Shown: positions 2,276 through 20,391 of the stretch, piece by piece
Layout: each line of letters opens with the position of its first letter
Numbering within the stretch: the stretch's first letter is position 1
DNA from: a virus
Direction: 5' to 3' (one strand)
IMG/VR virus record: IMGVR_UViG_3300010885_004067
Span: 1 to 22,548 of that record
DNA: 22,548 nt
The notes under the pieces: model-generated
The model's database searches: none
What the model was told of the DNA's origin: nothing
Seen by the model: only the letters and a program-made list of their open reading frames with translations
Program-made: the position numbers and the translations under genes

Positions 2276-5200
2276 TTATTTCAACGGATCTGCATGACTA
2301 TTATTAAAATAATCACGATAAGGCCAATATAAGCCATAATATGATAGGTTATAATTGGTAGTAATATCTGAAGCCGATTGATTCACGGATGTATCAGTTG
2401 GATAGAATAGTTTGTAACCGAAAGTACCTGCCGCGCCCCCATTAAGACCTAGGAAGCCGCCATGTCGTCCACCCTTATATATTCTAATAGTATAGTGTCT
2501 GCCTTGATCCGGATTATGTGTCCACAACAACTTAAACTGATCTTCTAACCAAGTACCCCAAGAAGTAGAGTATGGATCTGATGTTCTCTGTAGTTGTCCA
2601 TAATGTTCTATATTACGTCCATCATTCAGATATAATTGCTTGTTTCTAACATCAGCTTCTGTTATAGCTATTGCGGATCTACTATTAATAATAGGAACCC
2701 GCGGACCGTTCCAGCTTCTCGACTGGAAGATTTCTGCTCCGATAAAATTATTCTTGGCGTTAATATAGAATTCTACTGGACCTGATTGTGTAGAGAAGGT
2801 ATAATTAAATTCTTCATATACATATCCGTTACTATCACGTGAACGGTTTCTTTGTTCTTGTTGTACACTAGTGATTGTTTGTACTGTTGTTGGTTCTGAA
2901 GGTGTTACTGCTACCACACCATCAGTAGCTCTTGTCTGAGAAACTAGCGGCACTTCAACAAAAGGTAGTGAATGATTATCATCGCCTGTAGTGCTTAGAC
3001 TAATCTTAAGTTCATTAACTAATGGAGACAAATATCCGTCAACAATTGACGCACTATAATGTGGATTAGAAGTATCTGCATACGTATAATCTTCAAACCC
3101 ATCTACAAAGAATCCAAACTTAAAGCGATCTGTACCATCGTATCCAGGTATAGATCTTTTTTGTGCGATCGTTTCAGTTAGTGACAAAGAGGTATAATAC
3201 TCTAGATCACTGATACGTCTTTCTAACTTACCGATATCTTGCATAGTATAATTGCGTGGTTGAAGCGCATTACGGTCAGTTGCTCCTAATGGTGTAGTAA
3301 CACGATAATCGTTTAGTCTCTGTGTATTATATTTTTCATTAGCAATCTTAGTATCGGCGAATTTAGTTGTTTCTGCCGATAAAATATATGGGTGTGAAGG
3401 ATATGCAGGTATATTTAATATGTTTATTGTTAGAGCATTATCCGGCGCTGAAGGCGCTTCTATAGATCCGGCTGTGCCTTTAATTACCTGAAATCGATTT
3501 GATGTATCAATAATAACGCGATCTGTTCTACCTAAATAATAATTGACTGAAGCAGATAGCTCGGAATCAGGCACAGGAAACTTCTTATCCGAAGAAGAGA
3601 ATTTACTCGCATATGTTTTTTCTTCTGGATTTGTCGGCACATGAATTAGGTCATCAGCAGTTACTGGTGTTTCCGATGCTGTTGAATTGGGTCTCAAATC
3701 AAACTGATCGCGAAGATCATAATAGTTACCTCTGTTACCATATACTTCTGGAATTTCTAGTGTATTGATAGTAGAAATTGAAGCATCCAGAGAGACTCCA
3801 TCATTAATAGGATATGTACCAGACCCGCCCGGAGCTTTTAGTCCTCCAGTGTCACTATGAGTAAAGTAATCGAAATCTACGAGAAGATATTCTGTAGATA
3901 GTAATGTTATATCTGCATTAGGTTTAAGATAAAGATAAGACATACCATAATAATCTTCGGTCTGATTATGGTCTATATAGAAATATTGTGTTATGTCTGG
4001 TTTAGTCAGATTTGCCCCTCTATAGACTTTATTGAGTCTAATTACATCCGATACGCCCAATGCCCATGGTCCTACAGTCTTTGCTTTATTACTCCCTAAA
4101 TAAAGCCTAATAAATCTATGCCTGTTGACAGTCTTCGCTACCGGCGTAACACTTTCCTGTCTTACATTAAAATAAACTGCTGCCGTTACCTCTGGAGTAA
4201 TTGTATTTCCTAGATTAATAGTGAGCGTCTTGCCTGAAGAATTGTTTTCTACAGTAACGCGGTCCATTGGAATTGGAATGTTTGCTGGATATCCTAAGTT
4301 GTAAGTGTTCGTTGTGGCATTAAATGCAGGATTACTCATTAGTGTAGCGGAAGTATTAGTATCAACAGATCTGATCTGTACAAAACCTAGTGATCCGATT
4401 TTAATAAAATCCCCCGGATTAAGATCAGATAAGAAAGTTGTACCCCCAGTTCCGGTCAATGTGGTAGATGATGTAGAACAGCCAACTCTTTTAGTACCTG
4501 TAGATACAGTACTAACCGTGTTTGCTAACGGTACGATAACAATATCTCTTTTCTGTGTTGAAGAAAGCGTACCTGTATAAGGAAACTTTTCTCCCGTCGA
4601 AGAAGGTATTGTAATCGGAATAGTACCACTTGTCGATAGTGTATATGTATTCCCTGTACGATATGTGTAATTAATATTATACGCATTAGCTACTGCTGGG
4701 TTGCCTGCATAATAAATTAGGCTAGACATCTGATTGTCTTTAATGATAGCCTTACCATTTTCTAAAACGATATCGCAGATAGCATTATCGTCATAAATAG
4801 ATTTCACATCAGCGAAGTTCTTGCCTGCTTTCATATCAATATCAAATAGATATATTCTGTATATACAATCCGGAGTGCCAGGGACTCCCTGGTCATACAT
4901 TATAGACCTAATACGAGCTTGTCCAACTAACGTACCTCTATGGCTTATAGCAGAACCTATTCTAGTAGAGATATAAGATCTTGTATCTGAATATAGATTA
5001 ACAACGGATCCTGTTTTGATGTCAAAATTACCAGCGTATTCTTTAACTCGTACATAGTTACCATAGTTAACTGAGATCGTTCCGTTTAGAATTCTCTGGG
5101 TGTCTGTACCTTTAGCGACTGCTTGTTTATAGTTGTAAAGTGTTTCTACACGAGAGCCGTTAATGTATCCGGTGCCTGGATCAATAATGATGCTGAAGTC

Positions 5201-12110: not shown

Positions 12111-13877
12111 TTATGACCTAACAGGCTCTACAGTAAGATTAATATCTTCTTCTATAATATTTAGGATAACATTATTGATTGTCGAAATGTCTTTGTATCT
12201 TGGTTTTGCTATAAACTTAATACTGTTATTAAAATAACTGTCTATCTTAAAATTAGAGAACTGCAATAAACCCTGATCATAATTCATTTTACCCACTGTA
12301 TCGATAGTGGAATCTGTGTTAGAAGATATTACTATTAGATTTCCGTTAGCATCATCTTTAATATAAGATTTGATACCTTTGTACATAATAAAAGAAGAGG
12401 ATATACAAGAGTTGGTTGTGTTATCTAGAGGTATGTTATACGCAACGTCAAAAGTTAAGTATTTACCTAATTCTGGATTGACTCTCTTAATAATAGTTAT
12501 TGAAGTTTCATTAGAAATGATAGACTGCTGAGAGTTGTCAATAGCTTGTACTAATTTTGAGTAACGTAAAACTCTATTAAAGTTATTGAGATTACTTTGT
12601 GCGTATTTGACAATAGCCGAAGATGTAATGGTCTTAACATCATCTGGAGTAAGTCTAGTTACATTAACGTTATAGCGTATGGTTGATACTACACCTAGAT
12701 ATGTATATTCGGGATCTACAAATACTGGATCAATAGAAACAGGGGACCTAGGTTTTAAGAAACGATAATATTCTTCGCTTTTAAGTTGGGGTACATAATC
12801 TACCTCATTTAGATCAACAGCGACAAATACTTTACCAAACTGGGGAGGATTTAGATTTTCTCCTCCGTAAGCAGTAACCGCATTAATCTCAGGAAAGTTT
12901 AATTTGAGTAGTGTTTCATAATCATTTGTTGTAATAGCTCGTTCTTGTGTTGTAAAATGACGTGGAGCATTATATTTAATAGATTCCGTACTCTCGGAAA
13001 CAGAACCGCCCGATGCTACAGTATTAACATAAACAATGACATTAGATTCCCCATCTAAACGAGAGTCTACGGAAAACTTATTACAACCATTTGGCAACTC
13101 GCCATTAGATACACGATACTCGATATTAACAATAGAGTTGTCTTTTGGACGTCTACCTGTAACACCATCTCCAAAGATAATATCGTAACTATTGCCTATG
13201 CCGCCCTGTACAAAGAACACTTGCGATCTGCTATTTAGATCAAACAAAGATGTAGCACGAGTGTATGTGAGCGAGGTGGCGCCTACATCTTCGATAACTG
13301 TAACTGCAATGCTTGATATGTCTACATTTCTATTAGAAATAGTCATTCTAGGTGGAGAAGAGCTATTATATGTAAAGGTATCGCTTAAGAAATACCCTTC
13401 GTATAAGTTAATATTGCTGCCTGTAAATGTAATATCCGTAGAATTTAATACGAAATCTGATATAATAATAGTTTCTGCGGTAGAAAATGTATACGTTGTA
13501 GATGAGAAGTTAGAGGTAAAGGTAGTTCCTTTAGGTATAACAATTCTTCTCTTCTTGAGATCAGAAGATACGACCGATATATTCACATTAGCCACAGCAG
13601 ATGTGAATGAACGAGGGGTGTAGTTTAGTTCTTTAGCATGGGATACAACAGAGTCTCTTAGCTGTGCCGAGTCCAGGAACATCTCGTTCCCAATCATGTT
13701 TAGATAGAAAGCATTATGATATGTATTATACGATAGGATGTCAAGCAATACACTCATGTTAGAACCATCAAAATCGTAATCATTAAATCTATCTTGGGAT
13801 TTAAGATATGCTTTGAATGTATTTTTAAGGGTATCAAAATCGAGGTTAGTGAGGATGATACTTGAGTTTGCAGCCAT
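12111..13877 (-). CDS. 6: Baseplate wedge protein, gp6-like (baseplate J family)
   Basis: A 588-residue homologue of T4 gp6 (660 residues), which dimerises to form the continuous ring of the baseplate inner wedge; the same fold occurs in gpJ-type proteins and T6SS TssF. The N-terminus has the typical pattern DFDGSNMSVLLDILSYNTYH and FYLNMIGNEMFLDSAQLRDS, followed by VVSHAKELNYTPRS. Around residues 305-350 there is an ITTNDYETLLKLNFPEINAV block that is also typical of this family. Its ATG overlaps the gp25-like stop by one base (TAATG), so translation is probably coupled. A TATAAATA box on the same strand lies inside the end of the gp25-like gene, 47 bases upstream of the ATG, and could give an extra late transcript. 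Confidence 0.9.
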   Translation of the reverse strand: MAANSSIILTNLDFDTLKNTFKAYLKSQDRFNDYDFDGSNMSVLLDILSYNTYHNAFYLNMIGNEMFLDSAQLRDSVVSHAKELNYTPRSFTSAVANVNISVVSSDLKKRRIVIPKGTTFTSNFSSTTYTFSTAETIIISDFVLNSTDITFTGSNINLYEGYFLSDTFTYNSSSPPRMTISNRNVDISSIAVTVIEDVGATSLTYTRATSLFDLNSRSQVFFVQGGIGNSYDIIFGDGVTGRRPKDNSIVNIEYRVSNGELPNGCNKFSVDSRLDGESNVIVYVNTVASGGSVSESTESIKYNAPRHFTTQERAITTNDYETLLKLNFPEINAVTAYGGENLNPPQFGKVFVAVDLNEVDYVPQLKSEEYYRFLKPRSPVSIDPVFVDPEYTYLGVVSTIRYNVNVTRLTPDDVKTITSSAIVKYAQSNLNNFNRVLRYSKLVQAIDNSQQSIISNETSITIIKRVNPELGKYLTFDVAYNIPLDNTTNSCISSSFIMYKGIKSYIKDDANGNLIVISSNTDSTIDTVGKMNYDQGLLQFSNFKIDSYFNNSIKFIAKPRYKDISTINNVILNIIEEDINLTVEPVRS

Positions 13878-14302
13878 TATCTTACTCTATCTAAGGTAAC
13901 ATCGACAGTTACGGGTTCTTGTTTATTTATAACCATAAAAACAACCTTGACCTGATACAGATTGTTGTCATAGTCTGGAACTGCCTGAATATTTAATATC
14001 TTAGCTCTTGGCTCATGAGTACTCAAAGTCTCGCGAATGAAAGTTATAATATTATCTGCCGTATCAGATCCCATCGGTTCGAACAATAGCCTTCTAATGT
14101 TTGAACCTAAATTTGGTTGAAAAAGTCTTTCACGACGATTAGTTAAAATTAAATTACGTATGGATTTGACTACTGCGTTCTCGTTAACATATTTTACAAT
14201 ATCTTTAGACACTGGATGCGGATTAAGATTTGTTAGAAAGTCACTATAGATCTGTGTCTTTCTATCTTGCTGTGTGAACCTATCTGCTCTTGTAACTGAC
14301 AT
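13877..14302 (-). CDS. 25: Baseplate wedge protein, gp25-like
   Basis: A 141-residue member of the gpW/gp25 family (T4 gp25 is 132 residues; T6SS TssE is related). In the T4 baseplate, gp25 sits in the core bundle between gp6 and gp53 and helps trigger sheath contraction. Visible family signs are RRERLFQPNLGSNIRRLLFE at about residues 56-75 and the conserved E-P-R motif at residues 97-99, followed by a C-terminal beta sheet. The gene precedes the gp6-like gene with a one-base overlap, an order seen widely in contractile tail systems. Its start is 14 bases after the Ig-domain gene, with an AAGAGAAA ribosome-binding stretch upstream. Confidence 0.93.
   Translation of the reverse strand: MSVTRADRFTQQDRKTQIYSDFLTNLNPHPVSKDIVKYVNENAVVKSIRNLILTNRRERLFQPNLGSNIRRLLFEPMGSDTADNIITFIRETLSTHEPRAKILNIQAVPDYDNNLYQVKVVFMVINKQEPVTVDVTLDRVR
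13924..13931 (-). promoter_or_regulatory. Probable late-promoter box before the gp6-like gene
   Basis: An exact TATAAATA on the minus strand lies inside the 3' part of the gp25-like gene, 47 bases upstream of the gp6-like ATG. T4 late promoters are often placed within the end of the preceding gene. It could be a chance effect of codon choice. Confidence 0.45.
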
Positions 14303-14316
14303 TTGTTTTCTCTTTA

Positions 14317-15801
14317 TTATGCTGTGACAGTAGAGGTTGCGTTAGAGTTTGCTGCTAATACATATCTCGAAGTGCTTACAGTTACCTTACATTTGATTGT
14401 GCTTCCAATATCAGCGGTTACACATTTGTATGTGTTAGTTGCAGAATTGTTTTGAACAACTGTCGTATCTCCGCGATACCATTCGTAATAGTATAACATA
14501 GGTGTTACACCAGACCAAGTACCTGTCGAACAAGTGAGTGTTTGATCTTTAGCAGCTGTACCTGTAATGACTGGTTTATTAGCTTCAGATACATTATATA
14601 CTACTGGAGATGTATCTGATGACTGTGCCACCTCTGCATTTAAATGGTTGCCTGCAATAATAACACAATGTAATACTTGTTCTAAATCTTCGATAACTGG
14701 TGTGTATGAGAATGTATTGGCACCTTTAATTTCAAGTCCGCCTCTATACCATTGTGCTTCGTATTGAAAAGCAGCGTTGTTAGTAACTCCATTAGAGGAC
14801 CAGGTTCCATTAGAGCATAGCAGTACAGAACCTACAATTGCATCGCCTGTAATAGTAGGAATTGTAACAAGGTCTGGAGGTGGTTGTTTGAATACTGCTG
14901 AGATATCCTGGAAGTATTGTGTAGATGTATTGCTACTAACACTCTCTAGAAAAGCCGCCGAGGAAGAAGTATTGATGCCTGGTGGAATACCAGTTAAATC
15001 TTGTAGTGCTGTCTGATGTCCGCCTACTAGATTACCTGTCGATGTAATAAATTCCTCAGCTGAATTTTTAATATCTTCAAATGATCTGATAATATCTTCA
15101 GATGTATTTACTGCATCTATAACATCCTTGATATTGACACCTATATCTGTAAGACCGCCACAAATAGCATCTGCTATTTCTTTAGAGATTTTTAATATAG
15201 CTCGGTCATATACCTTGTCCAATTCGTCGTTTGCGAACCCCTTTACCATTTGACGGGTACTGATAGCACACGCTTCTAGTTTAGGTACTATTTGCTGTAC
15301 GACTTTAATCAAATCGCTCAATGCACTTATGAGCTGAACAATCTTTTTAATTTCTCTAAGAGCCGCCTCGAGGTCCGGTAGAATACGTCCTACGGTTGCC
15401 TTCTTAATATATTTAGGTAGCTTGAAAGGATTAAGAGGAACAGTAGTAATGGGTAAGATACTATCTAACTGTTTTTGAATAGATGCCTTGATGTCATCTA
15501 GGTTAACACCCAGAGTCTTTAGAGCCTTCTTTGCTTCACGCTGTAACTCTGAACATTCAGTAGCGTTATTAATCTTTGCAGTTGCTTCCTTGACAAACGC
15601 AACAATATGATCTAAATTAGCTTCTTCTTCTGTTTTCTTATTAAGTTTTTCACGACAACCTGCATCACTAACGACTGGCGGCATCAAAAGAGCTTCTAGC
15701 TCTGCTTGCGCTTTTTTAGTGTCTACTACTATAGGAGGTGCGTTTAGAATGCTCTCCTGCAGAATGTGATTAATCTGAATTGTATTAGCAGAATCTGCCA
15801 T
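14317..15801 (-). CDS. Unknown structural protein: helical N-terminal half plus two C-terminal Ig-like domains
   Basis: A 494-residue protein I cannot assign to a T4 gene. Residues 1-260 are mostly helical, with Lys/Glu/Leu patterns suggesting coiled coils (for example residues 85-115 and 145-175) and no membrane segment. A Ser/Pro-rich linker covers about 270-311. Two tandem bacterial Ig-like domains follow, at about 312-400 and 409-494. Both show the pattern P-x-I-T-G then L-x-C-S-x-G-T-W, then Y-E-(A)-Q/x-W-Y-R-G (WYRG at 351-354 and 441-444), and a C near the end of each. It lies between the gp5-like spike and gp25-like wedge genes, with 14-base gaps on both sides, so it is probably made with the baseplate and may be a hub- or baseplate-attached protein. 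Surface or carbohydrate contact by the Ig domains is an inference. It could instead be an assembly or tape-measure-linked factor. Confidence 0.82.
   Translation of the reverse strand: MADSANTIQINHILQESILNAPPIVVDTKKAQAELEALLMPPVVSDAGCREKLNKKTEEEANLDHIVAFVKEATAKINNATECSELQREAKKALKTLGVNLDDIKASIQKQLDSILPITTVPLNPFKLPKYIKKATVGRILPDLEAALREIKKIVQLISALSDLIKVVQQIVPKLEACAISTRQMVKGFANDELDKVYDRAILKISKEIADAICGGLTDIGVNIKDVIDAVNTSEDIIRSFEDIKNSAEEFITSTGNLVGGHQTALQDLTGIPPGINTSSSAAFLESVSSNTSTQYFQDISAVFKQPPPDLVTIPTITGDAIVGSVLLCSNGTWSSNGVTNNAAFQYEAQWYRGGLEIKGANTFSYTPVIEDLEQVLHCVIIAGNHLNAEVAQSSDTSPVVYNVSEANKPVITGTAAKDQTLTCSTGTWSGVTPMLYYYEWYRGDTTVVQNNSATNTYKCVTADIGSTIKCKVTVSTSRYVLAANSNATSTVTA
14320..14868 (-). repeat. 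Tandem pair of Ig-like domain coding units
   Basis: Two units of roughly 260 bases encode residues 312-400 and 409-494 of the Ig-domain protein. They share ordered landmarks: I-T-G, L-x-C-S-x-G-T-W, W-Y-R-G and a late Cys. The residues between differ considerably, so this is an old or diverged duplication rather than a recent copy. Confidence 0.7.
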
Positions 15802-15815
15802 TGTCTTGACCCTTA

Positions 15816-16733
15816 TTACCCTGTAATATCAACACAGATACCGTCTTGGAACACAAGGGTCTTTCCATTAGCGATATAAGAGCCAGACTTACCATTTCCA
15901 ATAGACGCTTTACCCGCTGTAGAGAAACTACCAGTTGTAACAGAGAAGCCGGTTGGGCTAGTAGCTACTATACTTCCTGCTGAAGATTGCCTAATACCCT
16001 TTTTACCCATTAGTTCGATAGCACCACTTGTAGCTATGATAATATCTTCTTTTGCCGCTATCTGCACGCCTTTGCTTATTGTAGCGTTTAAGTTACCACC
16101 TACTTCCATTCTACAGTCTCCAGTAACTGTAATAGACTTGGCACCTCCAGTAATATCAAAACTATCCGCGGGTGTCTTAATGACTAGTTTGCCGTCTTTG
16201 TCTATTTCAATATAAGCACCGCTTTTGTGATAGATATGAATACGTTCGGCACCTTCAGTGTCATCTAGTTCAATTACATGTCCAGACTTAGTTGTAATAA
16301 CACGATTGTATGGATACACAGCACTATAAGGCGAGTCAGGTTCTACAGATCCTACCTTTTCTTTATTGATAACATTCTCTCCCCGTGCTAACATCGAAAG
16401 AGAATGCTTAGAAGAACCGTCATCTTCATCTGGATTAAATAGGTGTGTTCCAAAAATAACTGGCATCTGTTTATTATAACCATCTACCCAGAAACCTACA
16501 ACATGAGTATTGATAGACACACTAGGAGTGTCGCCTACGCCTCCTAGAGAAGCGCTTGTAGTAGGCATCATAAAAGAAGCCCAAGGCAGAATATCTGGAT
16601 CCACATCGTTGACATGTTGACCAATAATTTGCACTTTAACTCTGCCTAGTTTCTTTGGATCTCCATCTATCTTTTTAACGATGCCTACGAACCAGTGAAA
16701 CCCTTCACGACCCATTTGTTGAGTAATTGCCAT
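15816..16733 (-). CDS. 5: Baseplate hub spike protein, gp5-like without lysozyme domain
   Basis: A 305-residue relative of T4 gp5/VgrG, the trimeric spike under the hub. Residues 10-100 form an OB-fold-like domain (HWFVGIVKKIDGDPKKLGRV and PVIFGTHLFN). Residues 140-190 hold the typical transition TTKSGHVIELDDTEG then GAYIEIDKDGKLVIKT. Residues 195-280 have short repeats suited to a trimeric beta-helix (VTGD, VGGN, ISKG, IAAKED, IATSG). T4 gp5 is 575 residues and carries a lysozyme domain between the OB fold and the beta-helix; here nothing fills that place. An in-frame ATG 45 bases further upstream lies inside the previous gene, but the ATG at 16733 has a strong AGGGGGGAGA site about 7 bases before it and begins the conserved domain, so I choose it. 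The gene follows the gp27-like gene, its expected partner. Confidence 0.88.
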   Translation of the reverse strand: MAITQQMGREGFHWFVGIVKKIDGDPKKLGRVKVQIIGQHVNDVDPDILPWASFMMPTTSASLGGVGDTPSVSINTHVVGFWVDGYNKQMPVIFGTHLFNPDEDDGSSKHSLSMLARGENVINKEKVGSVEPDSPYSAVYPYNRVITTKSGHVIELDDTEGAERIHIYHKSGAYIEIDKDGKLVIKTPADSFDITGGAKSITVTGDCRMEVGGNLNATISKGVQIAAKEDIIIATSGAIELMGKKGIRQSSAGSIVATSPTGFSVTTGSFSTAGKASIGNGKSGSYIANGKTLVFQDGICVDITG

Positions 16734-16737
16734 TATA

Positions 16738-18129
16738 TTATCTCCCCCCTTGAGGTACAGAACCTCTAATAAGTTCAAGCGACATATTGTACTGAGGACG
16801 GTCCTGATTTAAAATACAATGTCTAACCTTAGCTACTAGATAATTGCCTGTATCTATTCTATCGAGACCGGTAGTGTTATCGAACGAGGTTATGTCTGAA
16901 AAATTACACTTAATCATATCGCCCACAGTAATATCAGAGTCTCCGTACACGTATATTTGTATAATATGTTTTGCTAACTCTTCTATATATTGCTTTAAAA
17001 TACCCAGTTTCTTAGTAATAGCATAGGGATTCGCACTATACTCAGTTGGCGTCACTGTCATATTAGTACCAGGAGATGCCCCATGACCCCTTTGAAAACT
17101 AGCAGATATTGTCGAAGAGGTTTTTGTCTCTGCCGTCTTTATGTTATTTAACAAATCTCCGTGGGTAGTTGTTACTTCATCTAACGAGCCTTTAGACCAA
17201 TCATAATTAACCCCTACATTGTTAAGACCACCGGATAATGTTTGATCAACGGTACCACCGTTAACTAATTTGTTATACGCTATAATATTACGAACATTGA
17301 CATCTCTAATATCTTCTTTACGCACAGTATCCGTAAAGAATTCTTTATCTGACAGATTCTGTTCTATAGTTTTAGCGCCATCATCCATTAGTTTTTCAAT
17401 AGTAACAAAATGAAATCCGTTCTTATTCTCAAAGAATGTGTACGAGTGTGTCTTATATACACTAGAGAATGAATAATGCTTGAGGTGATCGATAGCAATA
17501 AACGGCCGTTCCATAGAGATCAGATCTATCTGTTTATCTAAACTAACAGTAGGCTCTATAGTAATAGGCTTAGGTGTGTGTATGTACTTTTCCAGTATTT
17601 CTCTTATAACATCGCTATAATTTCTATCTCTAACTGGAATAGCTCGTATAGGGAAATTGTTAAGATACTCTGCTGAAGAACACTTGAGGGTATATGTCAC
17701 TACCTTATTGGTAACACCTACTGGTATTTCATTATATAGTTCATTGACTCGTAGATAATAATAACAATCCTTACCTACAGCACCGGGTGTGTTATATCTG
17801 ATAGTGATAAACTCCTCGCCCTTCAATCCAAAGTTAGCTCGAATATTAGATGCATCGGCAATAAGAAAGTCAGCAAATATAATAGGGGAAAACAGAGACT
17901 CATAAATGTCTATTCTCTTTGCCTGATTTATTAGATTGTATGTCTTGTCGCCTGTTGTACTGTGTAGAACTATTTCTTGTATATGAATATCGCCAGGGAT
18001 ATTGTCTATGATATCGCCGCCCTTATTGGATAACATATTAGGATCTGTGCGATTATAGATGTCACGTTCTACATTGGCTAGAATATCCTGTCCTACCCCC
18101 CGTATAAAACTTTTAAGATTAAAAGACAT
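16738..18129 (-). CDS. 27: Baseplate hub protein, gp27-like
   Basis: A 463-residue protein (T4 gp27 is 391) placed directly before the gp5-like spike gene. In T4, the gp27 trimer forms the hub ring that joins spike and tail tube. Residues 45-130 (DIHIQEIVLHSTTGDKTYNL, IDIYESLFSPIIFADFLIAD) and about 130-240 (NYSDVIREILEKYIHTPKPI, FSSVYKTHSYTFFENKNGFH) have the pattern of the paired beta domains in gp27/gpD-type hub proteins. A C-terminal block (VYGDSDITVGDMIKCNF, then VAKVRHCI) also fits that family, where a dynamic extent-and-transport element is followed by a final barrel. Its ATG overlaps the gp53-like stop by one base (TAATG). The match is by architecture and context rather than by strong T4 residue identity. 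Confidence 0.78.
   Translation of the reverse strand: MSFNLKSFIRGVGQDILANVERDIYNRTDPNMLSNKGGDIIDNIPGDIHIQEIVLHSTTGDKTYNLINQAKRIDIYESLFSPIIFADFLIADASNIRANFGLKGEEFITIRYNTPGAVGKDCYYYLRVNELYNEIPVGVTNKVVTYTLKCSSAEYLNNFPIRAIPVRDRNYSDVIREILEKYIHTPKPITIEPTVSLDKQIDLISMERPFIAIDHLKHYSFSSVYKTHSYTFFENKNGFHFVTIEKLMDDGAKTIEQNLSDKEFFTDTVRKEDIRDVNVRNIIAYNKLVNGGTVDQTLSGGLNNVGVNYDWSKGSLDEVTTTHGDLLNNIKTAETKTSSTISASFQRGHGASPGTNMTVTPTEYSANPYAITKKLGILKQYIEELAKHIIQIYVYGDSDITVGDMIKCNFSDITSFDNTTGLDRIDTGNYLVAKVRHCILNQDRPQYNMSLELIRGSVPQGGR
16741..16750 (-). promoter_or_regulatory. Strong Shine-Dalgarno site setting the gp5-like start
   Basis: On the minus strand the sequence AGGGGGGAGA ends about 7 bases before the ATG at 16733. 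It overlaps the last codons of the gp27-like gene. It supports the shorter 305-residue form of the spike protein over a start 15 codons upstream. Confidence 0.75.
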
Positions 18130-19992: not shown

Positions 19993-20391
19993 TTATACCA
20001 CCGTCAGAATTTCAACTTCGCTGTCTTGACGATTCTTAGCGATTTTTGTGGACGGATTAATCTTAGCTAGGTATTCTTTTGTATCTGCTAATCTGTTTCT
20101 ACGTAGATGTGCTATATCAGACGCGCCGGTTCTAGAGGTAGATTTACCAGCAAATGCATAATATACATCCAGAGCTCCTGATAAAAGTTTATCTGTCTGT
20201 AGTGCGGCAAATGCCTCGACGCTACTGAACGAAAGACCAATATTTAAATAGTTTTCTGCTACCGGCTGTGCTACCTGTTGGGCATTAGTTGTACTACCCG
20301 AAATAGCATTCGAAATAGCCGACGTAACTAATCTATCAATAGGAGACAGATTAGTACTTTTTACATAATCCAAGGGGTTATTAGAAGCCAT
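19993..20391 (-). CDS. Small protein of unknown function leading the leftward operon
   Basis: A 132-residue protein I do not recognise. The N-terminal half is Ser/Ala/Asn-rich with probable helices (IDRLVTSAISNAISG, SVEAFAALQTDKLLSGALDV). The C-terminal third is basic (IAHLRRNRLADTKEYLAKIN). It has no signal peptide, membrane segment or Cys. It has a good TAAGGA site about 8 bases before the ATG at 20391 and is the first gene after two minus-strand late-promoter boxes, one base ahead of the gp48-like gene. The context suggests a small tail or baseplate component, or an assembly factor working with the tube cap. That is inference only. Confidence 0.8.
   Translation of the reverse strand: MASNNPLDYVKSTNLSPIDRLVTSAISNAISGSTTNAQQVAQPVAENYLNIGLSFSSVEAFAALQTDKLLSGALDVYYAFAGKSTSRTGASDIAHLRRNRLADTKEYLAKINPSTKIAKNRQDSEVEILTVV

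Follow-up and report, generated by a model that had tools for sequence, protein, structure and literature searches.

A helical protein with optional Ig-like domains in the slot after gp5 of uncultured T4-like phages: a candidate spike-tip component

Introduction

What does a 494-residue protein do whose gene lies between those for the spike protein gp5 and the wedge protein gp25, in the tail block of a T4-like phage? The spike of any contractile injection machine has to be sharpened and armed and, to our knowledge, the solutions for its tip are PAAR proteins and iron-bound self-tips. In T4, the product of gene 5.4 is a PAAR protein that sits on the blunt end of the gp5 β-helix and forms the membrane-attacking tip (PMC4576200, PMC7600766), and P2, phi92 and Mu have spikes in which an HxH motif binds Fe (PMC10811340). 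The group studied here consists of uncultured T4-like phages, and its slot gene product was previously unnamed. We analyzed the gene in the window, i.e., the whole stretch of 22,548 nucleotides from the IMG/VR record IMGVR_UViG_3300010885_004067, together with its relatives, their neighboring genes, and the C-terminal tips of their gp5 proteins.

Results

A conserved gene between gp5 and gp25

The window, a viral contig of 22.5 kb, contains a tail block of the T4-like type comprising gp48, gp53, a gp27-like gene, a gp5-like gene, the target gene, gp25, gp6, and more wedge genes, all on the minus strand. The target and its nearest neighbors are as follows.

16738..18129, minus strand: gp27-like hub protein, upstream of gp5 (phrog_350)
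15816..16778, minus strand: gp5-like hub/spike protein with an OB domain and a β-helix, without the lysozyme domain (phrog_430, E 4e-54; Gp5_OB above cut-off)
14317..15801, minus strand: target gene, 494 aa, in the gp5–gp25 slot (ORF and translation; same-slot homologues)
13877..14302, minus strand: gp25 baseplate wedge protein, downstream of the target (phrog_261, E 4e-42; Pfam GPW_gp25)

A preliminary description of this DNA placed the gene correctly: the ORF opens with ATG, closes with a stop codon and fills 14317–15801, and both neighbors are supported by profile matches. It lies 14 nt from gp5 in the window, and in many relatives it overlaps the gp5 stop codon. Two further contigs carry a 79–80% identical homologue at the equivalent position. 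The dN/dS ratio of the target is ~0.16 overall, with 0.13 for the first and 0.17 for the second Ig-like domain, and the linker preceding them (residues 276–309) is 94% identical to that of relative L001 with a dN/dS of ~0.03. Because purifying selection acts throughout, the target is a real, used gene. Elsewhere in the block, the TTG start assigned to gp5 by the ORF finder is probably 45 nt too far upstream (window 16733–16778), as an ATG at ~16733 fits the homologue in L001, and a conserved gene for 132 residues without a PHROG match lies beside gp48 (window 19993–20391), at the same place in many relatives.

A helical domain with zero to three Ig-like domains

A search with gp6 yielded 80 viral loci, in each of which the stretch between gp5 and gp25 was read, and further searches added to these. 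In all, about 22 distinct relatives of the target were recovered, all from viral contigs; the gene sits between gp5 and gp25 wherever both neighbors are visible, and always directly after gp5. The helical domain was found neither in named phages (tblastn of the phage collection) nor in a scan of bacterial and archaeal genome contigs with the N-terminal domain. Five parts can be distinguished in the target.

15622..15801, minus strand: N-terminal tail, residues 1–60, variable and missing from short homologues (alignment; model pLDDT 30–43)
14977..15621, minus strand: conserved helical domain, residues 61–275, with the motifs T/NDC..., NPFK.P..KK...GR.LPdL.A and P.L..CA (21-member alignment, held-out profile, models)
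14875..14976, minus strand: conserved linker, residues 276–309, DTSS..F..SV...P.P (alignment)
14587..14874, minus strand: Ig-like domain 1, residues 310–405 (pLDDT mostly ~90; Foldseek Ig/FnIII; PHROG 12736)
14320..14586, minus strand: Ig-like domain 2, residues 406–494 (model and Foldseek; weak IG_AIR9 Pfam match, E 0.01)

The AlphaFold model of the target, built with 19 homologues, agrees with the helical N-terminal half and two Ig-like domains originally described. Residues ~10–304 are helical, mostly at low confidence (pLDDT 30–80), and residues ~310–494 form two β sandwiches with a pLDDT of mostly ~90, which Foldseek matches to tandem Ig/FnIII structures (best E 2e-5); both sandwiches are thus Ig-like by model and fold search alike. 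A match to PHROG 12736 covers residues 295–395 (E 4e-10). For the short homologue L117 (201 aa) the model consists of five helices with a pLDDT of 75. Cys83 and Cys178 of the helical domain are invariant wherever the position is present (20/20 and 21/21 members), and two additional cysteines (14/14 and 16/16) are confined to the longer members; disulfides are possible.

The constant part of the family is the helical domain, and the C-terminal part is modular. Most members have two Ig domains, L012 has three, L017 and L109 have two plus another β domain, and the subclade of L014 and L113–L117 and the distant phage L069 have none, their proteins consisting of the helical domain only (~200 aa). 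In the alignment, these Ig-less homologues stop at the conserved linker, where the Ig array of the other members starts. A profile built without them still detects them at E 1e-38 to 1e-25, whereas the best-scoring non-member reaches 0.008, and hence their homology is not a training artefact. The helical domain alone is thus sufficient as a gene, and the Ig pair is an optional appendage rather than the essence of the protein. The earlier idea that the helical half could be an anchor from which the Ig domains face outward is in keeping with this pattern of a conserved, anchor-like part and a variable decoration of zero to three domains. Two oddities were seen among the Ig-less loci. An in-frame TAA in L014 (4041–4043) splits gp5 between its OB domain and spike, which is either a sequencing error or a truly split gp5, and in L069 the target homologue is followed by a second slot gene (3260–3868), whose 202-aa product has a β region resembling a spike and an end that contains HxH.

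Searches with the helical half

The helical domain has no credible match among Pfam or PHROG families, PDB entries, or named phages. A profile search with the N-terminal half alone likewise gave no credible match to a known assembly factor or tape measure, as the hits fail controls: PHROG tape-measure families are hit at E ~1e-7 to 1e-5 (best 2e-7), but reversed sequences reach 8e-6, and the ‘tail protein’ family phrog_788, matched by 7 of 12 members, is also matched by 13 of 14 unrelated control genomes. PDB sequence matches are to coiled coils at E>=9e-4, a likeness to gp5 of Xanthomonas phage X1 is weak and of the coiled-coil type, and a fold search that included the L117 model returned nothing below E 0.15. 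No profile match links the N-terminal half to the T4-type hub and wedge proteins gp27, gp48, gp53, gp25, or gp6, each of which has its own gene. Kinship with other helical proteins of the same slot (L023/L027 and L045) is not supported by hhalign (probability <=2.3%). Finally, the target is not a PAAR protein, because the defining motif (Pfam PF05488) is lacking.

Occupants of the slot after gp5

The preliminary description held that the T4-type order has no gene at this place, which proved incorrect. T4 itself has the order 53-5-5.1-segC-5.3-5.4-6, with four genes between 5 and 6, the last of them encoding the PAAR spike-tip protein, and the slot is commonly filled in T4-like phages. Within the tail operon, the target gene immediately follows the spike gene, as in the gp5.4 type of spike-tip protein. 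PAAR proteins above the Pfam cut-off occupy the slot in L047, L048, L057, and L088, and PAAR-like genes, judged by eye, do so in Melnitz and S-RIM12. Other helical proteins of 363–460 aa are found in L023, L027, and L045, and gene 144 of phiM12 encodes an M15 peptidase. The slot is empty in DLP_6, L018, L022, L036, L058, L065, and L083–L087; a scan starting from L018 gave no additional close empty-slot relative with a visible slot. A search for PF05488 at E<=5, covering the window record and further records with the target of up to 81 kb, gave no match; as these contigs are fragments, a PAAR gene might lie elsewhere.

Several other slot proteins came to light in this survey. A second undescribed family (L023, L024, L027, L030, L034, L043, and L089) is helical, 415–460 aa long, has hydrophobic IPxIG-type segments, goes with a blunt-ended gp5, and has no match in named phages; the N-terminus of a 656-aa slot protein in L134/L136 looks similar to it. 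A third helical family of 363 aa (L045:4466–5557 and L138:2460–3551) also accompanies a blunt gp5 end. A small Gly/Ala-rich protein of 137–150 aa (L041:3924–4337 and L080:3400–3852) is paired with a gp5 tip of its own (..NFDYPGNFNNN), on gp5 bodies ~90% identical to those of empty-slot relatives. In phages of the Melnitz type (L004:6001–9044), two genes take the place of a single gp5, one for an OB protein and one for a spike protein; each product has a peptidase-like end, and a PAAR-like gene comes next.

The gp5 C-terminal tip tracks the slot occupant

The types of gp5 C-terminus track the occupant of the slot. A blunt end (..INLNP, ..APIVGLNG) accompanies occupants of the PAAR and L023 types. 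Of the phages with an empty slot, four lineages (L018, L022, L065, and L083–L087) have an HxH tip, and the rest have other extended ends. Carriers of the target family have a tip of their own.

15819..15953, minus strand: last 45 residues of gp5, the ‘GI-type’ tip, G.G..G..I.(A)(N)GK....F..GI, seen exclusively in target-family carriers

This tip is present in 18 of 18 carriers and in none of 40 non-carriers. A GI-tip profile for which L013, L069, and the Ig-less clade were held out scores the 18 carriers above all 40 non-carriers, the held-out tips scoring 66 to 15.5 bits against 10.9 for the best non-carrier. Among named phages the GI-type tip was not found, matches to gp5 ending before the last 18–25 residues. 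On a tree of gp6, each of the three changes in carrier state comes with a change of the tip, i.e., in the main clade, upon loss in L018, and in a separate appearance in L069, although three independent changes are too few for significance (sign test p 0.25).

Comparison of closely related gp5 proteins points the same way. In pairs whose bodies are 80–100% identical, the tips are 65–100% alike where both slots hold the same occupant or none, and 20–47% alike where the occupants differ. For example, L022 shares 91% of the gp5 body with L023 or L024 and 25–33% of the tip, and for L041 against L058, L061, or L086 the values are 89–91% and 20%. Most simply, these patterns can be read as a slot product that is seated on the apex of gp5 and therefore has to match it, as T4 gp5.4 does, and the joint exchange of slot gene and gp5 tip suggests that the target would cap the tip in place of the usual sharpening protein.

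Discussion

We propose, with a rough probability of 0.55, that the target is a protein of the central spike, with a helical base docked on the gp5 tip and Ig domains pointing toward the cell. The helical domain would dock on the C-terminal tip of the gp5 trimer, i.e., the apex of the cell-puncturing spike, where T4 has gp5.4, and the optional Ig-like domains would project ahead of it toward the host surface. Upon sheath contraction, the target would enter the envelope ahead of all other parts, and its Ig domains could make a final weak contact with glycans or proteins of the host surface, or center the spike. The sequences establish the place of the gene, the conservation of its helical domain, the modular number of Ig domains, the lack of a detectable PAAR gene in carrier contigs, and the link between slot occupant and gp5 tip; that the protein docks there and belongs to the virion, in which stoichiometry, and what its Ig domains do, we infer. 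Of the earlier suggestion of an undescribed baseplate component, the unnamed conserved gene within the hub/wedge block stands; its anchor is probably the spike apex and not the body of the baseplate, given that slot gene and gp5 C-terminal tip are swapped jointly and that T4 has gp5.4 in this slot. One feature speaks against a cap: taken alone, the GI-type tip has the look of a complete apex, which would favor binding at the side or none.

By position and co-variation, we file the target as a protein that may work like a spike-tip protein, an exchangeable, non-PAAR component of contractile tails. With gp5.4 and the PAAR proteins of phages and T6SS it shares the slot after gp5 and before gp6 (with gp25 intervening in the target phages), a presence that tracks the form of the spike C-terminus, and mostly one occupant per phage. 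It differs in having neither the PAAR motif nor similarity to these proteins, in being helical, 200–590 aa long and often equipped with Ig domains, and in that the gp5 of its carriers ends in the GI-type tip instead of a PAAR-binding blunt end. The HxH iron-binding spikes of P2 (gpV), phi92, Mu, and Milano (gp27), seen also in empty-slot relatives such as L018, are an alternative answer to the same problem; there, however, the tip is inside the spike chain and requires no partner gene. Ig-decorated virion proteins (the PHROG 12736 structural protein, Hoc-like proteins, ‘whisker’) share the sequence type of their Ig modules with the target (PHROG 12736, E 4e-10), but the match is limited to the Ig part, and the helical domain and gene position differ. 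Conversely, phiM12 gene 144 and the L023/L027 and L045 families share the slot after gp5, without detectable sequence relation to the helical domain of the target.

The strongest rivals to a spike-apex protein are an assembly adaptor acting on the tip and hitchhiking of adjacent DNA. Since the 3' end of gp5 adjoins the slot gene, and the two even touch, one recombination event could replace both without any contact between the products, and the target could then decorate the baseplate or a fiber elsewhere, as the preliminary description had it; Ig-like domains indeed occur in many phage surface proteins (113 Rheinheimera phages, 16 Stenotrophomonas phages, and others). We consider this unlikely, as it leaves unexplained why the terminal part of the spike is where the breaks occur, and why the empty-slot phages L018, L022, L065, and L083–L087 have self-sufficient HxH tips, never the GI type or the blunt PAAR type. 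Doubtful to a similar degree is a gp5-specific chaperone or adaptor, comparable to the T6SS adaptors encoded beside vgrG, that would act in folding or loading of the gp5 tip without staying in the mature virion. The match with the tip and the adjacency of the genes would be explained equally well, and the helical domain alone is often enough; however, arrays of zero to three Ig domains under purifying selection (dN/dS 0.13–0.17) are typical of virion surface proteins and not of chaperones, and known adaptor families gave no match.

Two further readings concern the helical half by itself. Its long amphipathic helices, its scattered tape-measure profile hits, and the likewise long and helical character of the L023/L027 and L045 families would suit a tape-measure-like or membrane-active protein, released from the tail tip to aid DNA across the inner membrane. 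This is improbable, given that reversed sequences give tape-measure hits of similar strength, that the profile comparison with the other helical slot families is not significant, and that the N-terminal half has no segment with the hydrophobicity of a transmembrane helix, the top 19-residue mean of the whole protein (1.74) being in Ig1. More improbable still is an unrecognized remote copy of a known T4 hub protein: the hub neighborhood would fit, but no Pfam, PHROG, or PDB sequence match survives the controls, the fold search stayed above E 0.15, and neighboring genes already encode gp5, gp27, gp48, and gp53.

Returning to the spike-apex reading, we see about even odds that the family constitutes a non-PAAR class of spike-tip proteins, i.e., a helical cap, mostly with Ig-like binding domains, that is swapped as one cassette with the gp5 apex. 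If the family does cap the spike, T4-like phages would have another, non-PAAR solution, able to carry binding domains at the point of penetration, and at least four interchangeable solutions for the spike apex would exist among them: PAAR proteins, HxH self-tips, the helical/Ig cap, and other helical proteins. The correspondence between gp5 tip and slot offers a simple genomic predictor of the spike occupant, together with a list of other unnamed slot proteins.
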